Source: Pyrenula massariospora (Eukaryota; Ascomycota; Eurotiomycetes; Pyrenulales; Pyrenulaceae). Taken from it: DNA of 64,000 nucleotides. This document shows positions 1 to 48,659 of this stretch, piece after piece. Location of the stretch: NCBI GenBank assembly GCA_021030905.1, contig JAGFMI010000004.1, forward strand, positions 1,054,001 to 1,118,000, read 5' to 3'. Under the pieces are notes generated by a model. The model ran no database searches. It was not told the origin of the DNA and saw nothing but the letters and a program-made list of their open reading frames with translations. How positions within the stretch are numbered: position 1 is the stretch's first letter; each line of letters begins with the position of its first letter. The translations under genes and the position numbers were made by a program.

Positions 1-2630
1 TCACGAATGGCAGGCTTGACATGATTGCCTTGCTCGCAAGTAAGCAGGTGACTGTTAAAACCGGCCAACGGCGCCGACAAGAACGCCAGCTTGTTGAGGT
101 TGGCCTCAAGCTCGCCGCGCTTGGGCTGAGGGAGCAGCTTTTCCAGCTCCGTCTGTGGCATGTCGAGAAAGAGTTGTGCAATCTTGGCTTCGAGGGAGAA
201 ACTCGGTTGAGGGAGAATGAGCACCCGGCCGGAAAGACGCTGGCGGTCTGTTTTTTCTTTTTGCTGCCTTTCTTTGTCGTCAACCTGGCCGTACTGATCA
301 CCCAAATCGACATCACCCCTGACAGCATAATGCAGCCTAGCGCCTTCACTGTGCCACCACCGCGACTCGGAAAGTTCCCAGTCCTTGTGGAGAATGTGTG
401 TGTACTCCACCTCCCACTCAAGATAAAGTGGAAACCAAGGCTGCGTGTCATTCCAGGAATCTCGCCAGCACGGTTGATCGTTATAGTCGAAGCCAAGACG
501 GTCATGGAAGATAGGGATCTCAGAGGTAAGTTTGGGAGGAACGTTGGGGGGAGCAGGCTCCGCAAACGTCGTCCTCTGCTCAGCAACCGTCATCATGAGT
601 CCCTGTGCCCTCAAAATGCTGGGTTTTCTTGGCTGTGCGTCGTCTTTGTCGTCACGCCTCGTTCGAAGAAGGACAAACTCTCGAACCAGGGCTTTCGCCG
701 ACGTCTGCAGCCGTGCTGGAAATTTCTTGTCGAAGAAGTTGGTAAACAGGGTGGCCCAGCTTCCAGTGTCCTCATTTGGAAACTTTTTCATCGCCTCAGG
801 CATTACCTGACAGTCCAGGCGTACCAGCAACGCATGTAAGTAATCTGGTTCCCAGCCCGATCGCACACCACCCACCAACAACGTCGGGTCACGTTGTTGT
901 TGGAACGGGTCATGCACTCCCGGCTGGAATTCTTTCCTCGCATCATCTTCTTTGCCTGCCATGGCGGTTATTTCTTTCACGTATGTCTCCTTCTGTTTGT
1001 CCAAATCGTATGTGCTTTGGAGTATAGGCGCCAATGTCTGCTTCACATCGCCTTCGCTCTTAGCAAGTGTGACAGCCTTCCACCATTCCGAAAATACGGT
1101 CCACCGTTGATATTTCAGTTTTCGGTCCACCGCATCGCGAAGTCGGCACATCTTATTCAGCTCCGCAAGTTTAGCCTGCTTGTCTACGGGCAGGATTGGC
1201 CTCCCACCTTCTTTATTGTTGCCAGATGCATGGTAGTGGTCGCCGCCATCGAGACGAAGATAGTTCCAGTTGTACATCATATCCGCCGCCTCTGCATGTG
1301 CCTCCACGCCGTCGTCGCGGCGCAAGAGTGCGGTCTCCAAGCGTTTTAGGGCTGCCTCGATTTGCTGTGGCACGCCTCGGTCGATCTTTTCATGGGCCCC
1401 GGCATAGGTCATGAGAGCATCCATGGGGGTTGTGCCCACCGCAATAGGTAGCGTGCCTGTCAGGAGAGCGGCATACTTGTCGGCAAGCACGTGTTTGGGT
1501 GCTTCTTTCAGGTTCCATTTCACATCGTACATGGCGCCGTGACAGAGACTGAGTGTGTATTTCTCCTTTTGAAGGTCCTTGTTGAACCAATCTGCGATTT
1601 GTTGCGGTGCCGTCTTAGGGGTGACGGTTTTGTAGCCCTTGATTTCCATATTCAGTGCCTTGAGCCTCTCTTTTCGAGACTGAGTTCCCTGGTATATGAG
1701 ATCTTTGGGGGGCTTCGAGTACCAGCCAAGAACGAAGTAGCTGGCCGAGACCTCGGAAGCATACACCGGCTTATCGTCAATAGTGTCGTACTGGAAGTTG
1801 TCGACGATCGAGAAGACATTGGAGCAGTGCGGCTGGAAGTCTGGGAATAGTTCGTTGGACGAGCTCAGCAACTGCAAGTTGACTCTTGACTTTTTCGGGT
1901 CAGGCGTCGCGTCTGCGGGAGCTGTTTCTGTCCAGCTCAACGCATCTATTTTATCGCCGATGAAAACCTCAGCTTGTCTCTGCAGGATGCGCTCGTCATC
2001 ACCGGGGCTCTTGACCGAAGGCGAGACGAAAGGAGACACATCGACCTGCAGATCGGCCTTGTCAGAAATGATGTCGCTAGGCCGCTTCAATATGCCTGTT
2101 CTCGGGTCGCGCTCGCCGTCGAGAGTGTGGCACCGATCGCTTTCCACCACCCACGCCGACACGGAACCCAGCTTATCCTGGGCTGCTTGCGGCTGGACGT
2201 TGGTCTGATCATGGATATGCCTGATCACCAGCCATCTTGACGGCACCTCAGGAAACTCTGGTAAGCCGCGCTTGTCACTATTTGCATCGCTCGTCACGGC
2301 TGTGCCACTCCGATATGCCCGGGGAAGGGTCCAGTGCAAGTAGACACCCTGCCGGTTCTGGCGACGCGCGTCGGGCCCTTTGCCAAGATCTGTGATGCGT
2401 GCATTGGAAGAAGCAGGGCTGGCGTTGTGTAGGTCCACATCATCGAGAATGTCAGGCTGGAGGTACGATTGATCAAGTCGCAGAAAGGAGTAGTTGGGCT
2501 GGGAGATGGGTGCTATTTTGCTGGTCGAGGATACTTGGTTTTTTTCGTGCCCGCCCTCGCAGACAGCCGCGTTAAAGATGAAGGCGTCGAGCTTGACGGG
2601 GATGAGCACATTCTGGTCTGCCCATGCCAT
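1..2630 (-). CDS. Very large intronless protein of unknown function (3' end beyond window)
   Basis: The minus strand stays open from an ATG at 2628-2630 to the window edge, about 876 codons without an intron; the C-terminus is missing. Composition is clearly protein-like. Near the N-terminus are a short VLIPVKLDAFIFN stretch (residue ~8), LHWTLPRAYRSG (~98), PSRWLVIRH (~131) and SAWVVESDRC (~158); later come YFVLGWYSKPPKDL (~298) and SLCHGAMYDVKWN (~361). From memory the LHW-LP and P-RWLV pair resembles uncharacterised bacterial proteins, which would need a search to confirm. No signal peptide or membrane segment is evident. An in-frame stop at 2661-2663 lies upstream and also reads as a pyrimidine-AG acceptor, so a short upstream first exon is possible. 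It is divergent from the 1,163-residue gene at 3944, which suggests a shared promoter and joint function. I do not assign a function. Confidence 0.85.
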   Translation of the reverse strand, partial: MAWADQNVLIPVKLDAFIFNAAVCEGGHEKNQVSSTSKIAPISQPNYSFLRLDQSYLQPDILDDVDLHNASPASSNARITDLGKGPDARRQNRQGVYLHWTLPRAYRSGTAVTSDANSDKRGLPEFPEVPSRWLVIRHIHDQTNVQPQAAQDKLGSVSAWVVESDRCHTLDGERDPRTGILKRPSDIISDKADLQVDVSPFVSPSVKSPGDDERILQRQAEVFIGDKIDALSWTETAPADATPDPKKSRVNLQLLSSSNELFPDFQPHCSNVFSIVDNFQYDTIDDKPVYASEVSASYFVLGWYSKPPKDLIYQGTQSRKERLKALNMEIKGYKTVTPKTAPQQIADWFNKDLQKEKYTLSLCHGAMYDVKWNLKEAPKHVLADKYAALLTGTLPIAVGTTPMDALMTYAGAHEKIDRGVPQQIEAALKRLETALLRRDDGVEAHAEAADMMYNWNYLRLDGGDHYHASGNNKEGGRPILPVDKQAKLAELNKMCRLRDAVDRKLKYQRWTVFSEWWKAVTLAKSEGDVKQTLAPILQSTYDLDKQKETYVKEITAMAGKEDDARKEFQPGVHDPFQQQRDPTLLVGGVRSGWEPDYLHALLVRLDCQVMPEAMKKFPNEDTGSWATLFTNFFDKKFPARLQTSAKALVREFVLLRTRRDDKDDAQPRKPSILRAQGLMMTVAEQRTTFAEPAPPNVPPKLTSEIPIFHDRLGFDYNDQPCWRDSWNDTQPWFPLYLEWEVEYTHILHKDWELSESRWWHSEGARLHYAVRGDVDLGDQYGQVDDKERQQKEKTDRQRLSGRVLILPQPSFSLEAKIAQLFLDMPQTELEKLLPQPKRGELEANLNKLAFLSAPLAGFNSHLLTCEQGNHVKPAIR

Positions 2631-3943
2631 GTTGTCAGCTTCAGACTGCACCGTCAATTCCTAAGAGAATAGGATCACAGTACGATCAAGAGAACCCGTT
2701 GGGAAAGAATAGGAGACCCACCCTTTAGACATCATCAAATGCCCTTCCCATCAAGCCGGCCTTCGCGGACCACTGGAAGCATTTCGCAGATTTTTTGTCC
2801 GTGCACCTAGCGAACTATTGAATGACACATATTTGATAAGGCAATTCTTAGTGCAGAGGTACCTAATCTAGCAGGTAAATCTGTCACCAATCATGGATAG
2901 AGCCTTACTGAATATGGTATGCAAAGCCTGACGATGGGGACGGGAACTTGCTGGCAAAGTTGAATGAAAAGCTGTGAACTTTTGGCGGGTTTTCAGGCCG
3001 ATACTTCTCCTGAACGCCCTTAAAACGGAAAGGTGTTAAATTTCGACGAGAATGTCCCTAAGACAGTGCAGCGCCACCAAGAGCTATATCTTATTAAAGG
3101 AATTCCGTACCACTGAAAGTAGAGCTACGAGACGCTTCCATTAGCCAGTTCCGGGTCGAGACCGTCCTTCCCCCCTCCCCAGAGAGGATGCAAGTTCGAT
3201 GATTGTGCGATGATTGTGCATCCGCAACAAGGCGAGAATGCCGAGTTTCGGTCTAGATTCCTGGTGGCTTCCCCTGTCTGCCTACCTAGGGGCTGAGCGA
3301 ACAATTGGTTGGGATTGTTGTTTTAAGCTAACTAGGTAGGGAGGATGCAGCTGGCCGGCATATCCTTCTATGTTTAGGCTAACCCCATTCGGTAAGGCCT
3401 ATATACGAGGCAGCTCCGATGGACGGCCTCTCAGGGCCATAGGGGGGGAGGGTCTAGTCAGCTCCGTCGTTCAGCTCGCCAGTGTTCCACGGCCCGAGCC
3501 GCTAGCTAGCTTTATCACCACGCTATCGAACCGGAGGAGGCGGGTCCGTACCTTTATCAAGCCATGCAGGTTCTGGCCGAAAGGGTCCATGTAGTGGTAG
3601 ACCACATTGATCGAAGAGGTGGATGTCTGCCGAAATCTCGACAGGGGCGGTACGTTTTCGGCAACTCGGCCGCCAGCCACTCGCCATGCCTTCGTAGCCC
3701 TTGGTGTCCCACGGTCTCAGCTTACAGGACTCCAGGCCATCCTTCCAAGGCATTTGATGGAAGTCTGGAGGTTTGAGCGATGAGAAGATACCAAGACAAC
3801 AAGCCAAGCCAAGCTATTCTACTCAATCGTCGATTAGATACACGAACTTGCGCTGGATCTTCTTTCGTTTGCTATTTTCGATGGTGACTTTGACTCTATA
3901 CCGTCTGAGTCTTGAAGCAGTGCCCTTGGGCTAACACAGCAAC
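2631..3943. promoter_or_regulatory. 1.3-kb divergent intergenic region between the two giant genes
   Basis: No convincing coding sequence lies here; the short open frames are out of context and lack family features. It must hold the promoters of both flanking genes. Just before the right-hand gene, a CTAAC followed by CACAG (3931-3939) looks like a branch point and acceptor, so a 5' UTR intron ending immediately before the start codon is possible. Confidence 0.5.
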
Positions 3944-6900
3944 ATGTCTCTTAAAGGCCAGTATCGCTTCCTTACCCTTCGCCACGAACAACGCATTCTC
4001 GTTGGGAAAAAGCCCAAGCTCCAGCCTGGCGAAGCAGTATTACACTCTTACTACCTCCCCTCCCTTACTGCCGGTCCACACACAATCAACGTCTCCCAGA
4101 CTGTTACTCTGCCCGACGATGATCCGCGTCGCGGAAAAGAAGATCCCATTTTAATCAACACCCCGAACAAACAAAAGTTTGAGGTTCTCGGCCCACAGTG
4201 GAACCTTGGCACGAATGCAGGCGGCAACAACAGCAGCAACGATGCAACAGATCCGGTATTGTCCGTGTACCCGGCGCCAGGCCACACTGCTCCGTATCGC
4301 ACGCTACCGCACGTTGTCCTTCGAGACCCCCACCTTCCCTGGGCTCGGCGAATCTCTAAGGAGAAGCTTGATGACGAGGGAAAGAACGTAATTCCGTGGT
4401 TCGCTCTCCTCGTATTCACGGCAGATGAGCTGCAGCTCAGCGAGGAAGAAAGCGATGCCTTCTTTCCAACTGGGCCAGATGGTCCAGGGGCTAAATTAAA
4501 TGAGAATCTGGGATGGGATCTCGAAGCTGGGTCAATTGAGAAGGTGAAAGGCAACGCACTGACTAATTTCATTGCAAAAGCGGCAGACTGGGAAGCCAAA
4601 GTTAAAACAAGCGTGGTTGCCATCCAAGGCACCCTCTTCAAGACTCTCTTCACGAACGACGCCCCAAATCAGACGGATTGTAACGTCAGTAAGTACCGCT
4701 ACCTCGCCCATGTCCGCACGATTGCCACCGATGGGACCATGTCGGCCATCGAAGGCGACTCGGGCACCTTCAGTATTGTTGTTTCGCACCGCATCGGACC
4801 CACCAACGTCAGTGAACCAACCCCAGTCCTGGTGCATCTCGTCTCGCTCAAGGGAATCGAGGGCAAGAAGCTGGAGAATGTTAGAGACTACGTGCTGCTG
4901 ACCAGCCTGTACAGCTGGTCGTACACAGCGCTGCCCCCAGGGTCTTTCGATGCTCGCAGCGCATTGAGACATCTGGGCACGTTCCCAAGTACGCAGACCA
5001 GCAACGAAGGGGGTCTCTCTGTGCTTCGAACCGATCGTCTAGAGAGTCTGACACCCAAGACGAGCACAGACGAGGAAAAACTTGAGGACTTGGTGACTCG
5101 CAGACAGCAAGACGGATACACAATTGTGCGGCACCGTAACGTGACCGGAGAGCAGACAGCTGCCATGCTGCGAGGACCCCTCGTGCCCACGTTTGTACCT
5201 CATCCACTAAATGAAAAGGTAGCGATGCAGTCCAACTTCGGCTCCGATCTGCAAATACTTGACCCTGACTTGGGACTCATGGACATCTCGTACGCGTCCG
5301 CTTGGCAGCTCGGCAAGACACTTGCGTTGGGTGATCCGGCCTTCACGGCTGCGCTCGCCCGTCTGCGCGGCGTCATTCACAAGGACGCGCTATCAAAAGC
5401 CAAAGAGAACATCATCAAGCGGCTTGGTCCAAACAGTAGTGCATATGCAAGCCGCGACACACTCGTCGCCGAGATGGCCACTATAATATCTGGTCTTCAT
5501 GGCCTGAACAGTGCTCTCCATGCCAGCGGCACTACAGCGGTATCAACCAATCGGTGGAACAGAAGACGGCCTGTGCCAGAGGTGAACCTCAATCTCCGGT
5601 CCGATCATGTTTTCGGTCAGATGTACGAGATGTCTCTCGACGTCTCAAAGAAGGCTGCGCAAGCTGTCACCGGCGGCCCATACAACTTTCACACCGTTCC
5701 ATCCAATACAGATTATGCAGCCGTGCAAGAGTGGGTCCTCGATAAGATGCATTTTGCTAACATACCCGCGCACTATCTGCTGCCAGATCCTTCTCACGTG
5801 CCGCCAGAGACACTGCGCTTCTTCCACATTGACGAGAACTGGACGGACGCCCTTGTGGATGGTGCGCTGAGCCTCGCAAATCACTTTGTTGACGATCCCA
5901 ACGAGGACTACTGCCGTAGTGCGCTGAAAGCGAGATTGCACGAGTATCTAATAACGCCAATCTCCAAGCTGAACTACTGCCAGCAGATGCCTGTGTATGG
6001 GTCTATCCTCAGAAGCCAGATCCTTGTACAGTTTCCCGACCTGGCTGTGAGCGCCGAGTTTGAGAAGGACGTTGGGACCCAAGAGGACTGGGCGAACGCA
6101 AAGCCTAAGGCACCAATTCTCGTACAGCGACGTCTCGCCTCGGATATGATGCTTGTCCTATTTGACCGCACGCCGCCGTGGCTGAAAAGACTCAAGTTCA
6201 CGCTGCCAGCGCACCAAATGACCTTCGCCGTAGCCGCCGAGCTCGACAAGGCGAATGACACGATCGCAATCGAACACAACAGGATCCAGGCCAATGCAGA
6301 CCCGCCAAGGCCGACAGATCCAAACGCTCCAGGGAGCAGGAATTCGCCGGAAGTTTTGGTCAGGCGTGACAACGACCCTCCAGAGGGAAACCTCAAACAG
6401 TACCCAATGAGCACCCTGTTCGATTGGGACTCGCGAAGCATGAAAGTGGCCAAGTATGCTGACCTCATCCATCAAGACCTGCAAGTCACCATGGGCAATG
6501 GCTTGTACAAGGAGGAGAAGGCCACCTCGGCGGTGCTTGCATTGCAGCTAAATGAGCCCATCTATTACCTCGTCATCGACGTGCAAACAAAGTCGTCGAC
6601 CGGGAGCGTAAAGGAGGCCATCTCCGAGAACTGGGAGGACCTAGCTTCATCCAAACAGCCATCACCCTTCCACTTTCATATCCCCAAATTCCCAGCCCAC
6701 AAGTATGCATCCAGAACCCCCTTGCCAGCTCCCGTCGAATCATCTCTTATCAGACCCGTCAAACTAAACCAGGAGCCATCCCCAAGTGTGACCCGTCAAA
6801 TCTACAAACCATTCATCCCTCTCTTCGACGAAGACCCTACCCCACGACCGACCGACAACTTCCCCATTTTCAACCTCCAAGTGACAGCCGTCGACCGCGA

Positions 6901-7435
6901 CTTCGTCCCCACCAACCGTTCCACCTCGCCCGACCTCCTCTTCAAAGTGCTCCTGAACGACAAATCGCAGAACTACTTCGACTACCGCCTCATGCGCGTG
7001 GAAATCCGCGTGCCTCTCGGCGAGAAGGGCGACCTGCGCAAGCCGCCGCTGGACCCGAATGACGAAGATGCACGTCGCCCGTTGATACGGCGTGATAGGC
7101 TCGACGACGCGCCGAAGCCGAGCATGCTATCGAACCTACGGTTCAACGTGCTGAGGCGGTGGACGAGGGAGAATTTGGTGTTAGAAGTGGTGCCGCGCAC
7201 GGCGTACGGGGTGAATATGCTGGCGCTACAGGAGGCGAGTTTCATTTTGCCCATGGCGGAGGTGATCCCGTGGACAGTGCCTCCGACGAAGTGGTATAAG
7301 GCGTGGGTGCAGATGCGGTGGGATTACCAGACGGGGAAGGTCGATTGGGATGGGGAGCGGAAGAAGAAGATTTTGCCGGCGTTCCAGAAGGGGGAATTCA
7401 AGGTGTATATGGGTCCTGATGAACGGACGCCCTAA
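3944..7435 (+). CDS. 1,163-residue intronless protein of unknown function
   Basis: One uninterrupted frame encodes 1,163 residues, the longest single-exon gene in the window. Distinctive blocks are LPHVVLRDPHLPWARR (residue ~121), PWFALLVFTADEL (~151), a VLLTSLYSWSYTALPPGSF stretch (~320), and FFHIDENWTDALVDGA (~626). The protein has no signal peptide or transmembrane segments, so it is probably cytosolic. The LPHVVL/LPWAR/PW-ALL and FF-D-NW-DALVDGA signatures resemble, as I remember them, large hypothetical proteins of actinobacteria and other bacteria; this is recollection, not a search. It is transcribed away from the equally large gene at 1-2630, which looks like its natural partner. The first ATG at 3944 follows a possible UTR intron acceptor. 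No enzymatic motif was recognised, and the function is unknown. Confidence 0.9.
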   Translation: MSLKGQYRFLTLRHEQRILVGKKPKLQPGEAVLHSYYLPSLTAGPHTINVSQTVTLPDDDPRRGKEDPILINTPNKQKFEVLGPQWNLGTNAGGNNSSNDATDPVLSVYPAPGHTAPYRTLPHVVLRDPHLPWARRISKEKLDDEGKNVIPWFALLVFTADELQLSEEESDAFFPTGPDGPGAKLNENLGWDLEAGSIEKVKGNALTNFIAKAADWEAKVKTSVVAIQGTLFKTLFTNDAPNQTDCNVSKYRYLAHVRTIATDGTMSAIEGDSGTFSIVVSHRIGPTNVSEPTPVLVHLVSLKGIEGKKLENVRDYVLLTSLYSWSYTALPPGSFDARSALRHLGTFPSTQTSNEGGLSVLRTDRLESLTPKTSTDEEKLEDLVTRRQQDGYTIVRHRNVTGEQTAAMLRGPLVPTFVPHPLNEKVAMQSNFGSDLQILDPDLGLMDISYASAWQLGKTLALGDPAFTAALARLRGVIHKDALSKAKENIIKRLGPNSSAYASRDTLVAEMATIISGLHGLNSALHASGTTAVSTNRWNRRRPVPEVNLNLRSDHVFGQMYEMSLDVSKKAAQAVTGGPYNFHTVPSNTDYAAVQEWVLDKMHFANIPAHYLLPDPSHVPPETLRFFHIDENWTDALVDGALSLANHFVDDPNEDYCRSALKARLHEYLITPISKLNYCQQMPVYGSILRSQILVQFPDLAVSAEFEKDVGTQEDWANAKPKAPILVQRRLASDMMLVLFDRTPPWLKRLKFTLPAHQMTFAVAAELDKANDTIAIEHNRIQANADPPRPTDPNAPGSRNSPEVLVRRDNDPPEGNLKQYPMSTLFDWDSRSMKVAKYADLIHQDLQVTMGNGLYKEEKATSAVLALQLNEPIYYLVIDVQTKSSTGSVKEAISENWEDLASSKQPSPFHFHIPKFPAHKYASRTPLPAPVESSLIRPVKLNQEPSPSVTRQIYKPFIPLFDEDPTPRPTDNFPIFNLQVTAVDRDFVPTNRSTSPDLLFKVLLNDKSQNYFDYRLMRVEIRVPLGEKGDLRKPPLDPNDEDARRPLIRRDRLDDAPKPSMLSNLRFNVLRRWTRENLVLEVVPRTAYGVNMLALQEASFILPMAEVIPWTVPPTKWYKAWVQMRWDYQTGKVDWDGERKKKILPAFQKGEFKVYMGPDERTP

Positions 7436-46883: not shown

Positions 46884-48659
46884 ATGCCTAGGTAGGATGG
46901 TCACGAATTTGAAGTTCGTCATGTTCTTACACATACCGCATTCAGGGAGATTATAACTATACAAGCCGGCCAATGCGGCAATAACGGTACGCTTGTGTGC
47001 CCCTCATATGCACTTGACCAATACCTTGTAAACATCTCACATGCAAGGAACTTTGTTCGCAAGAGGAAGGAGCTAACGAAGAGAAAGTGGGAAGCCAATT
47101 CTGGCAGCAATTGTGTCAAGAGCATGGTATCAACCAAGATGGGAACCTGGAGGACTTTGCGACTGAGGGGGGGGATCGAAAGGACGTATTTTTCTACCAG
47201 GTTTGCCTACCCAAGTCTGTCTACCAATAATCCTGCAATAGCTGACTGTCACAGAGCGATGACACTCGGTACATTCCTCGAGCGATTCTCATCGATCTTG
47301 AACCAAGAGTACGGCGACTTTGGTCGAATCTAGTGCACATGGGAGGCTAACGTACACTACGTACAGGTGATCGAGTCAATACAGACAGGAGCATACAAGA
47401 ACATTTATAATCCGGAAAACTTCTACATTGGCGCTTCTGGAATGGGTGCAGGAAACAATTGGGCTGCTGGTTACGCTGCTGGAGACTCCGTGCAAGAGGA
47501 CGTATTTGATATGATAGACCGTGAGGCGGATGGAAGTGATTCACTTGAGGTATGCTCTCCTCACTTAAGGGGAAGATTTGAGTGCTTTCTATGTTACGAA
47601 TACCTATCTCCGTCCCTTCTGGCATTGTCTATCAGAACTGCCTCATTTCCTGTCTCGCACTAACCAGAACAGGGTTTCATGCTACTTCATTCCATAGCTG
47701 GCGGCACTGGCTCAGGCTTAGGCTCTTATCTGCTCGAACGCATGAACGACCGTTTCCCCAAAAAGCTCATACATACCTACTCCGTCTTCCCGGACACCGC
47801 GACCGGCGATGTCGTCGTCAATCCGTACAACTCCCTTCTTGCCTTACGTCGCCTAACGCAAAACGCGGATAGTGTCGTAGTGCTCGACAACGGCGCCCTT
47901 TCCCGTATCGCTGCTGATCGTCTACATGTTCAGGAACCTTCGTTTCAGCAAACGAACCAACTCGTCTCCACTGTCATGTCCGCAAGCACCACCACCCTCC
48001 GCTATCCCGGATACATGCACAACGATCTAGTCAGCATCATCGCATCTCTTGTTCCCACGCCCCGATGCCATTTTCTCACAACAAGCTACACCCCTTTCAC
48101 TTCCGACACCCTCGACCAAGCTAAGACAGTCCGTAAGACTACGGTCCTAGACGTAATGCGCCGGCTCCTCCAACCAAAGAATAGAATGGTCTCGATCGCG
48201 CCAACAAAAACATCCTGCTACCTGTCCATCCTGAACATAATCCAAGGCTCCAACCTCGACCCCTCAGACGTCCATAAATCCCTGCTGCGCATCCGCGAAC
48301 GCCGCCTTGCTACCTTCATCCCCTGGGGTCCGGCCTCAATCCAAGTCGCGCTGACAAAGAAACCGCCTTATGCCTCCGCACAAAGCGCAGCGAGGGTGAG
48401 CGGACTGATGTTGGCAAATCATACGAGTATTGCAGGGTTATTCAGAAGGGTCGTGCAGCAGTATGATCGGATGAGGAAACGGAATGCGTATCTGGAGCAG
48501 TACAAGAGGGAGGAGCCATTTAAGGAGGGACTGGGAGAGTTTGATCGCGCGAGGGAGGTAGTGGTGGATTGTGTCGAGGAGTATGAAGCGGCGGAACGGG
48601 AGGATTACCTCGAGCCGGGTGGAAAGGAAGGGGGAAAGGATGGTGCGGCTACTGGGTAA
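46884..48659 (+). CDS. TUB4: Gamma-tubulin
   Basis: Microtubule nucleator of the gamma-tubulin ring complex at spindle pole bodies (mipA in Aspergillus). Six exons fit in frame: 46884-46891, 46946-46986, 47098-47201, 47255-47308, 47367-47549 and 47673-48659, giving 458 residues. The first coding exon is only 8 bases (MP plus two bases of Arg), and the joins yield [20 protein letters not shown]. Then come [43 protein letters not shown] and [20 protein letters not shown]. The tubulin signature is present as [15 protein letters not shown], followed by [18 protein letters not shown]. The tail is acidic and Gly/Lys-rich. Confidence 0.96.

Follow-up and report, generated by a model that had tools for sequence, protein, structure and literature searches.

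According to PMC12799240, several antiphage systems have, directly upstream, a gene for a metallo-β-lactamase (MBL) nuclease akin to the enzymes of DNA uptake. Transfers from bacteria into filamentous ascomycetes have been described as well, for example for Colletotrichum in PMC4320630. DUF6603 (PF20248) is a domain of unknown function, and no paper in the literature searched names either the domain or its Pfam entry. Here we analysed a locus of the fungus Pyrenula massariospora that bears on all three. The window, the whole 64,000-nucleotide stretch under study, corresponds to positions 1054001-1118000 of contig JAGFMI010000004.1 (C28; coordinates on it are used outside the window) in a 37.8-Mb assembly. 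It opens with two giant divergent genes, A and B, and a third giant gene, D, which carries an MBL and a DUF6603 domain, lies beyond its left edge. A and B almost certainly belong to a conserved multigene unit that bacteria have as well.

The locus resembles each of the described systems in part. Gene D is a member of the DUF6603 family, whereas A and B match no Pfam entry over cut-off. With the antiphage MBL proteins Avs1a, LmuA and RTasMBL, and with ComEC, the MBL domain of D has in common the motifs HxDxDH and SHHG, which we take to be marks of a ComEC-type site, and these proteins are its best profile matches. Unlike in the antiphage systems, however, the fungal MBL is fused to DUF6603, its scores are far under the NCBIfam cut-offs, and no trypsin-like protease was seen in the sample of neighbours scanned. 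In some bacterial loci D is directly preceded by a DNase I-like endonuclease/exonuclease/phosphatase (EEP) gene, whose product matches Exo_endo_phos or MnuA. The amphipathic strands of D, modelled in one very large sheet, are a feature of ApoB- and LptD-like proteins, and no Pfam name belonging to Tc toxins or extracellular contractile injection systems occurred among the scanned proteins, a sample of the neighbours only. Compared with the Colletotrichum transfers of PMC4320630, the present case involves several neighbouring genes of unknown function that are kept together.

Three giant genes lie within 20 kb of the fungal genome

A and B, together with D, the one DUF6603 match found in this genome, all lie within 20 kb:

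1..2630, minus strand: N-terminal 876 codons of gene A, from ATG 2630, open to window base 3
C28:1052119-1056630, minus strand: full gene A, 1,503 aa, intronless, ending 1,881 bases left of the window
2631..3943, no strand: divergent intergenic region between A and B, 1,313 bp
3944..7435, plus strand: gene B, ATG 3944 to TAA 7435, 1,163 codons, intronless, no internal stop
C28:1050027-1051235, minus strand: small gene between A and D, four exons spliced by eye, 339 aa
C28:1041436-1048785, minus strand: gene D (MBL and DUF6603), 2,402 aa, three exons

An earlier note, made from the letters of the window, had reported two giant intronless frames of at least 876 and 1,163 codons diverging from a 1.3-kb gap. 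The sizes were borne out (876 and 1,163 codons; 1,313 bp), and the motifs it had singled out (LHWTLPRAYRSG, PSRWLVIRH, LPHVVL, LPWARR and FFHIDENWTDALVDGA) were all found in the A and B frames. Both promoters presumably lie in the divergent region. The absence of introns holds for A and B, with A continuing uninterrupted to C28:1052119 once the sequence to the left is included, but not for their partner D, which has two short introns (65 and 76 nt, GT-AG borders) and whose joined exons form one continuous frame. The description of A and B as large proteins of an undescribed kind was upheld: neither A (876 aa) nor B had a Pfam match over cut-off or a match over threshold in NCBIfam or PADLOC. 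GC is 0.553 for A and for B, and GC at third codon positions (GC3), compared with 0.430-0.642 in ten other long open reading frames (ORFs) of the window, falls within the local range for A (0.635) and just above it for B (0.651). Residues 1 to ~780 of B form the core common to its bacterial relatives and residues ~963-1146 a β-sandwich in the structure model, and the C-terminal extension of B has no detectable homology to the extension of the long bacterial B proteins.

Between the end of A and the start of D are ~3.3 kb, which hold the small gene; this gene is without a Pfam match. The MBL domain of D is N-terminal, with both motifs intact (THWDSDH, of the HxDxDH type, and SHHG), and its DUF6603 domain is C-terminal. 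The latter, at C28:1042426-1043940 inside the cluster, is the single DUF6603 match in the genome and scores 489.5 bits against a curated Pfam cut-off of 27. The exon-3 part of D, like A and B, matched 0 PADLOC families, the Avs1, Lamassu and DRT core models included.

The D-B-A set is conserved across bacterial phyla

Bacterial relatives, which the earlier note had supposed, were found both on plasmids and in genomes of many phyla. On plasmids, tblastn detected A in 7 records and B in 8 (Streptomyces, Embleya, Paenibacillus), at 22.9-29.8% identity. By their annotation, the records of P. polymyxa and Streptomyces NBC_01276 carry a DUF6603 gene directly before B and A, and both of these D proteins are also PF20248 members. 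Scanning genomes with the B alignment turned up 146 relatives; the 80 loci retained represent Actinomycetota, Bacteroidota, Pseudomonadota, Acidobacteriota, Chloroflexota, Cyanobacteriota, Bacillota, Spirochaetes, SAR324 and others. With profiles of A, B and D, a script counted D-B-A as contiguous and on one strand in 63 of the 80. Seven of the 17 non-conforming loci touch a contig end (L049, L063, L075, L076, L077, L078, L085), and in others a gene was not found, displaced or separated (L067, L068, L069, L079, L080, L087, L088, L091). The remaining two, L018 and L035, were counted as failures because of overlapping long stop-to-stop frames but by eye resemble D-B-A.

The earlier interpretation is supported in part. 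A and B are truly paired in many genomes, and the possibility that their homologues are never adjacent is refuted by the bacterial gene order and by neighbouring locus tags in fungi. However, they do not make up a two-protein system: a third giant protein, that with DUF6603, accompanies them in bacteria and fungi, and some bacterial loci also add a nuclease-type enzyme. The fungal arrangement departs from the contiguous same-strand order of bacteria in that B is divergent from A and the small gene splits A from D.

The distribution of D-B-A is patchy and partly plasmid-borne. In the genus of L015 (Streptomyces goshikiensis), DUF6603 is held by 12 of 101 genomes, the centre genome counted. No relative was found on viral contigs, and A, B and D of L005 had no PHROG match.

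Several bacterial loci depart from the common gene structure. B is split over two consecutive frames (~450-550 and 290-340 aa) in many of them, often in Bacteroidota (L054, L056, L058-L062, L064, L066, L070, L071, L074 and others). D frames of ~3,200 aa, with an extra ~1,400-1,900 N-terminal residues, occur in L054, L056, L060, L064, L073, L080, L086 and L090; in L060 the extra part matches six of the other seven long D frames (not that of L056) and is without significant similarity to the C-terminal half of its own D. By annotation, the NBC_01276 plasmid (L005:1-3980) carries genes for a CATRA conflict system protein and a CHAT-domain protein beside D-B-A.

The cluster is kept together in many Pezizomycotina

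Fungal relatives of A and B were searched at E <= 1e-3, using the 876 window codons as the query for A; relatives of D were searched as well, and the best 120 rows were listed for each of A, B and D. The searches gave 311 relatives of B and 326 of A, showing that the two frames are not chance, and 383 of D. Most of the best 120 rows of A and of B span most of the query, some only part, and none carries a Pfam domain. The names among these rows, which we recognise as presumably those of ascomycetes, show A and B to be widespread in Pezizomycotina. Consecutive locus tags of A and B were seen in Heterodermia (Q9195_004528/004529), Fusarium lateritium (ACHAPT_008699/008700), Arthrobotrys megalospora (TWF281_003728/003729) and Diaporthe (INS49_007891/007890). 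In four species exactly one locus tag separates A from D, as in P. massariospora:

Heterodermia: B 004528, A 004529, D 004531
F. lateritium: 008699, 008700, 008702 (order B, A, D)
A. conoides: TWF506_006104, 006105, 006107 (order B, A, D)
O. blumenaviensis: TWF730_010040, 010039, 010037 (order B, A, D)

Other species show a different spacing or order, or two of the three genes side by side:

Cladobotryum, different spacing: 12269, 12270, 12273
Neocucurbitaria, different order: B 061270, A 061240, D 061280
Stylonectria: D g4213 adjoins A g4214
Daldinia eschscholtzii: A 010255 adjoins D 010256
Rhizina: B 000425 adjoins D 000426

When contigs were counted as the same if their printed sizes were exactly equal, among the best 120 rows per search, A and B had 33 in common, B and D 27, A and D 25, and all three 17. 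The carrier genera include plant-associated, nematode-trapping or mycoparasitic fungi. Five Fusarium homologues of B (P0014, P0036, P0039, P0043, P0048) are called 'Tol' at source; we saw no reason for this name, which may be a mislabel spread by annotation.

Trees place the fungi in one clade and point to movement between fungi

The fungi form one clade, with SH-aLRT (an approximate likelihood-ratio test) support of 100 and a long stem, both in the 63-row tree of B and in the 54-row joint tree of A, B and D, and the bacterial phyla are intermixed. Both are unrooted trees from quick LG+G4 searches that gave many letter-composition warnings. Of the 80 genome loci, 38 entered the joint tree, after removal of near-copies and of any locus that misses a gene or has a short A or B, and the six plasmid loci L002-L007 are in no tree. 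The fungal cluster is probably of bacterial origin, as the earlier note had proposed for the gene pair, judging from the distribution and the operon-like order, and fungi probably took up the set as one package.

Separate trees of A, B and D for 16 fungal clusters are largely congruent, in that most groupings agree, with some deep forks weak (45/13 in the B tree, 52/21 in the D tree). Each of the three pairs Cladophialophora (Eurotiomycetes) with F. lateritium at a bootstrap of 100 and puts Heterodermia (Lecanoromycetes) beside these two, again at 100. Each also rejects a single clade of nine Sordariomycetes, a group set after the joint tree was known, in the approximately unbiased (AU) test (p 3.8e-11 for B, 5.2e-39 for A and 1.5e-46 for D). 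These trees thus do not show simple vertical descent within the ascomycetes. The pattern suggests that the cluster moved between fungi; old duplications with loss, or a contaminant in the Heterodermia metagenome-assembled genome, may account for it instead.

Nuclease-type enzymes occur at the front of D in some loci

HxDxDH and SHHG are both present in 34 of the 43 long D relatives (among the best 120 of 383). The fungal MBL has LmuA, RTasMBL and Avs1a as its best PADLOC models and matches NCBIfam Avs1a and ComEC under cut-off, with 41 of 420 bits for Avs1a, below the equivalog cut-off of that antiphage model; in the PDB it matches ComEC (E 0.016). The MBL of S. clavuligerus has the same kinds of best profile match (Avs1a, LmuA, RTasMBL, ComEC). 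This MBL is encoded by a gene of its own directly before D, as are those of Embleya L004 and L085, all three over the Pfam cut-off, and those of L066 and L069, just under it. An EEP gene directly precedes D over cut-off in L048 and L082 and under cut-off in L062 and L092. The L048 enzyme resembles the MnuA nuclease (31 bits against a cut-off of 185), and no EEP was seen in the P. massariospora cluster.

A profile of 34 fungal MBL domains was run with filters off over 6,978 ORFs of 86 bacterial loci (E <= 0.01). It matched the MBL of the window genome itself and seven bacterial ORFs in six loci (L002, L004, L066, L069, L075, L085), all at D or <=4 kb upstream, with no other matches among the 6,978 ORFs. 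The MBL frame adjoins D in L002, L066, L085 and for one of the two L075 ORFs, overlaps the D frame in L069, and ends 1.1 kb upstream in L004 and 4 kb upstream for the second L075 ORF. A combined MBL profile added L033 and L044, both in its own seed. The EEP profile matched eight loci, every time directly upstream of D; six of these had served to build it, L083 is almost a copy of L082, and L031 is a new locus. MBL or EEP was recognisable by profile in 16 of the 86 bacterial loci, and a motif check of 21 hand-picked upstream genes found six MBL, six EEP and nine with neither.

A tentative conflict module and its alternatives

Structure models were made for B and D. The D model contains one very large sheet of amphipathic strands (residues ~220-740), whose face difference of 0.83 was reached in 0 of 500 shuffles; for B, used as comparison, the value was 0.745, with 34 of 500 shuffles as high. 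D matches porins, LptD and the ApoB belt, porins about as well as ApoB. Signal-like N-termini are almost absent from the set, and some bacterial loci have tandem paralogues after A.

We propose that D-B-A is a nuclease-armed conflict module with an A/B scaffold that fungi took up as a cluster, a reading to which we give somewhat less than an even chance. A and B would be two scaffold subunits of a three-protein core, a role suggested by their size and conservation, and would form the body of a complex whose proteins are made with no signal peptide. D would provide a very large amphipathic antiparallel β-sheet touching membrane, lipid or another hydrophobic surface. The phosphodiesterase at the front, where present (a ComEC/Avs1a-type MBL or a DNase I-like EEP), would be the effector that cuts nucleic acid, and the target would be recognised by the proteins encoded downstream, among which propeller, Kelch or PLAT domains occur. 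With effector and D on one polypeptide in this fungus, binding and cutting would be physically coupled. Pezizomycotina would have acquired the core as a gene cluster, a direction taken from its distribution. Complex formation, substrate, target and conflict role are what we infer; conflict is favoured because of the patchiness, the plasmid carriage, the mixed phyla and the antiphage-type enzymes.

Several observations weigh against this proposal. Being unrooted, the trees are no proof of the direction of transfer. Among the 120 listed D relatives, 77 are shorter than 2,050 aa, and both MBL motifs are missing in 76 of these, separate adjacent MBL genes not having been looked for. Neither MBL nor EEP was found by our profiles in 70 of the 86 bacterial loci, including all of L014-L027 (Streptomyces, Kitasatospora, Frankia and kin); as 62 of the 80 genome loci hold >1.5 kb before D, missing sequence accounts only partly for the absent enzymes. 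Twenty upstream proteins scanned comprised two EEP over cut-off, four others (an M16 peptidase, a calpain-type peptidase, a sigma-54 regulator and a LysR regulator) and 14 without a match over cut-off. Among 18 proteins scanned after A, a Kelch or other propeller was over cut-off in three (L057, L054, L029), PLAT in one (S. clavuligerus) and a PLD-like domain in one (P. polymyxa), with nothing over cut-off in 13. Because only three of 18 were of propeller type, we give a slightly lower probability to the conflict mechanism and to its extended form below; the structural alternative is rated somewhat higher. The fold matches of D have a root-mean-square deviation (rmsd) of 9-12 Å and low template-modelling (TM) scores, 44 of the 120 listed D proteins have a transmembrane-like hydrophobic stretch, and no trigger domain was identified, A, B and D being without a PADLOC match.

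The set could instead be a stored and released antagonism particle, in which D would be a membrane-inserting or translocating sheet, A and B the carrier, the downstream proteins target binders, and MBL or EEP a cargo acting on another cell or a grazer. Fungi keep non-secreted defence proteins in the cytosol, to which such a particle may be likened. The near absence of signal-like N-termini, the fusion of the enzyme to D in this fungus, the large-rmsd matches of D to porins, LptD and the ApoB belt, the tandem downstream paralogues of some loci, a few of those sampled having Kelch or propeller domains, and one PLAT domain encoded downstream all fit it. We nevertheless regard it as unlikely, as the MBL is closest to antiphage nuclease models and no release, lysis or injection gene occurred among the Pfam-scanned neighbours (a sample only). 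Only slightly less probable is a structural or lipid-handling assembly outside conflict, with D as an ApoB-like lipid-binding belt, A and B as a coat, and a hydrolase that processes lipid phosphoesters or a passenger. Against it, porins match D about as well as ApoB does, which makes lipid binding unspecific, the enzymes recognised beside D resemble nucleases, and the distribution is patchy and mobile. It is very improbable that ascomycetes simply inherited A and B vertically, as an ordinary pair with a housekeeping role, and that their bacterial similarity reflects transfers out of fungi: the broad Pezizomycotina spread by listed names and the single fungal clade in unrooted trees agree with this, but one gene order recurs among bacterial relatives from many phyla, and the nine-Sordariomycetes clade is rejected in all three fungal gene trees.

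The conflict-module reading can be extended further. D-B-A would then be a kind of nuclease-armed conflict system that has not been described before and that horizontal transfer carried across many bacterial phyla, with an ApoB/porin-like giant sheet at its centre and two giant families without a model in the libraries scanned. It would have entered fungi once as a whole cluster, the MBL nuclease there being joined to the core, and later have passed from one fungal class to another as a unit. In this full form the reading is possible but doubtful. If it is correct, a bacterial immune or antagonism system would be working inside a eukaryote; if D-B-A is a conflict module at all, the fungal repertoire would gain a multigene bacterial weapon or immune system. 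Two very large families without a Pfam or NCBIfam match join DUF6603 in a set that crosses phyla and the border between bacteria and fungi, and DUF6603 gains a system context, with a function testable via the predicted nuclease.

Neighbouring genes

A PhoD-related phosphatase gene lies just past D (C28:1038307-1040484, L011:4307-6484; PF19050, 198 bits) and probably marks, as an ordinary gene of the fungus, where the cluster ends. The frame at C28:1036844-1037638 (L011:2844-3638) resembles a recombinase of the RAD51/DMC1 type. Within the window, a frame of tubulin type at 47679-48656, presumably gamma-type by its resemblance, has a GC3 of 0.617.

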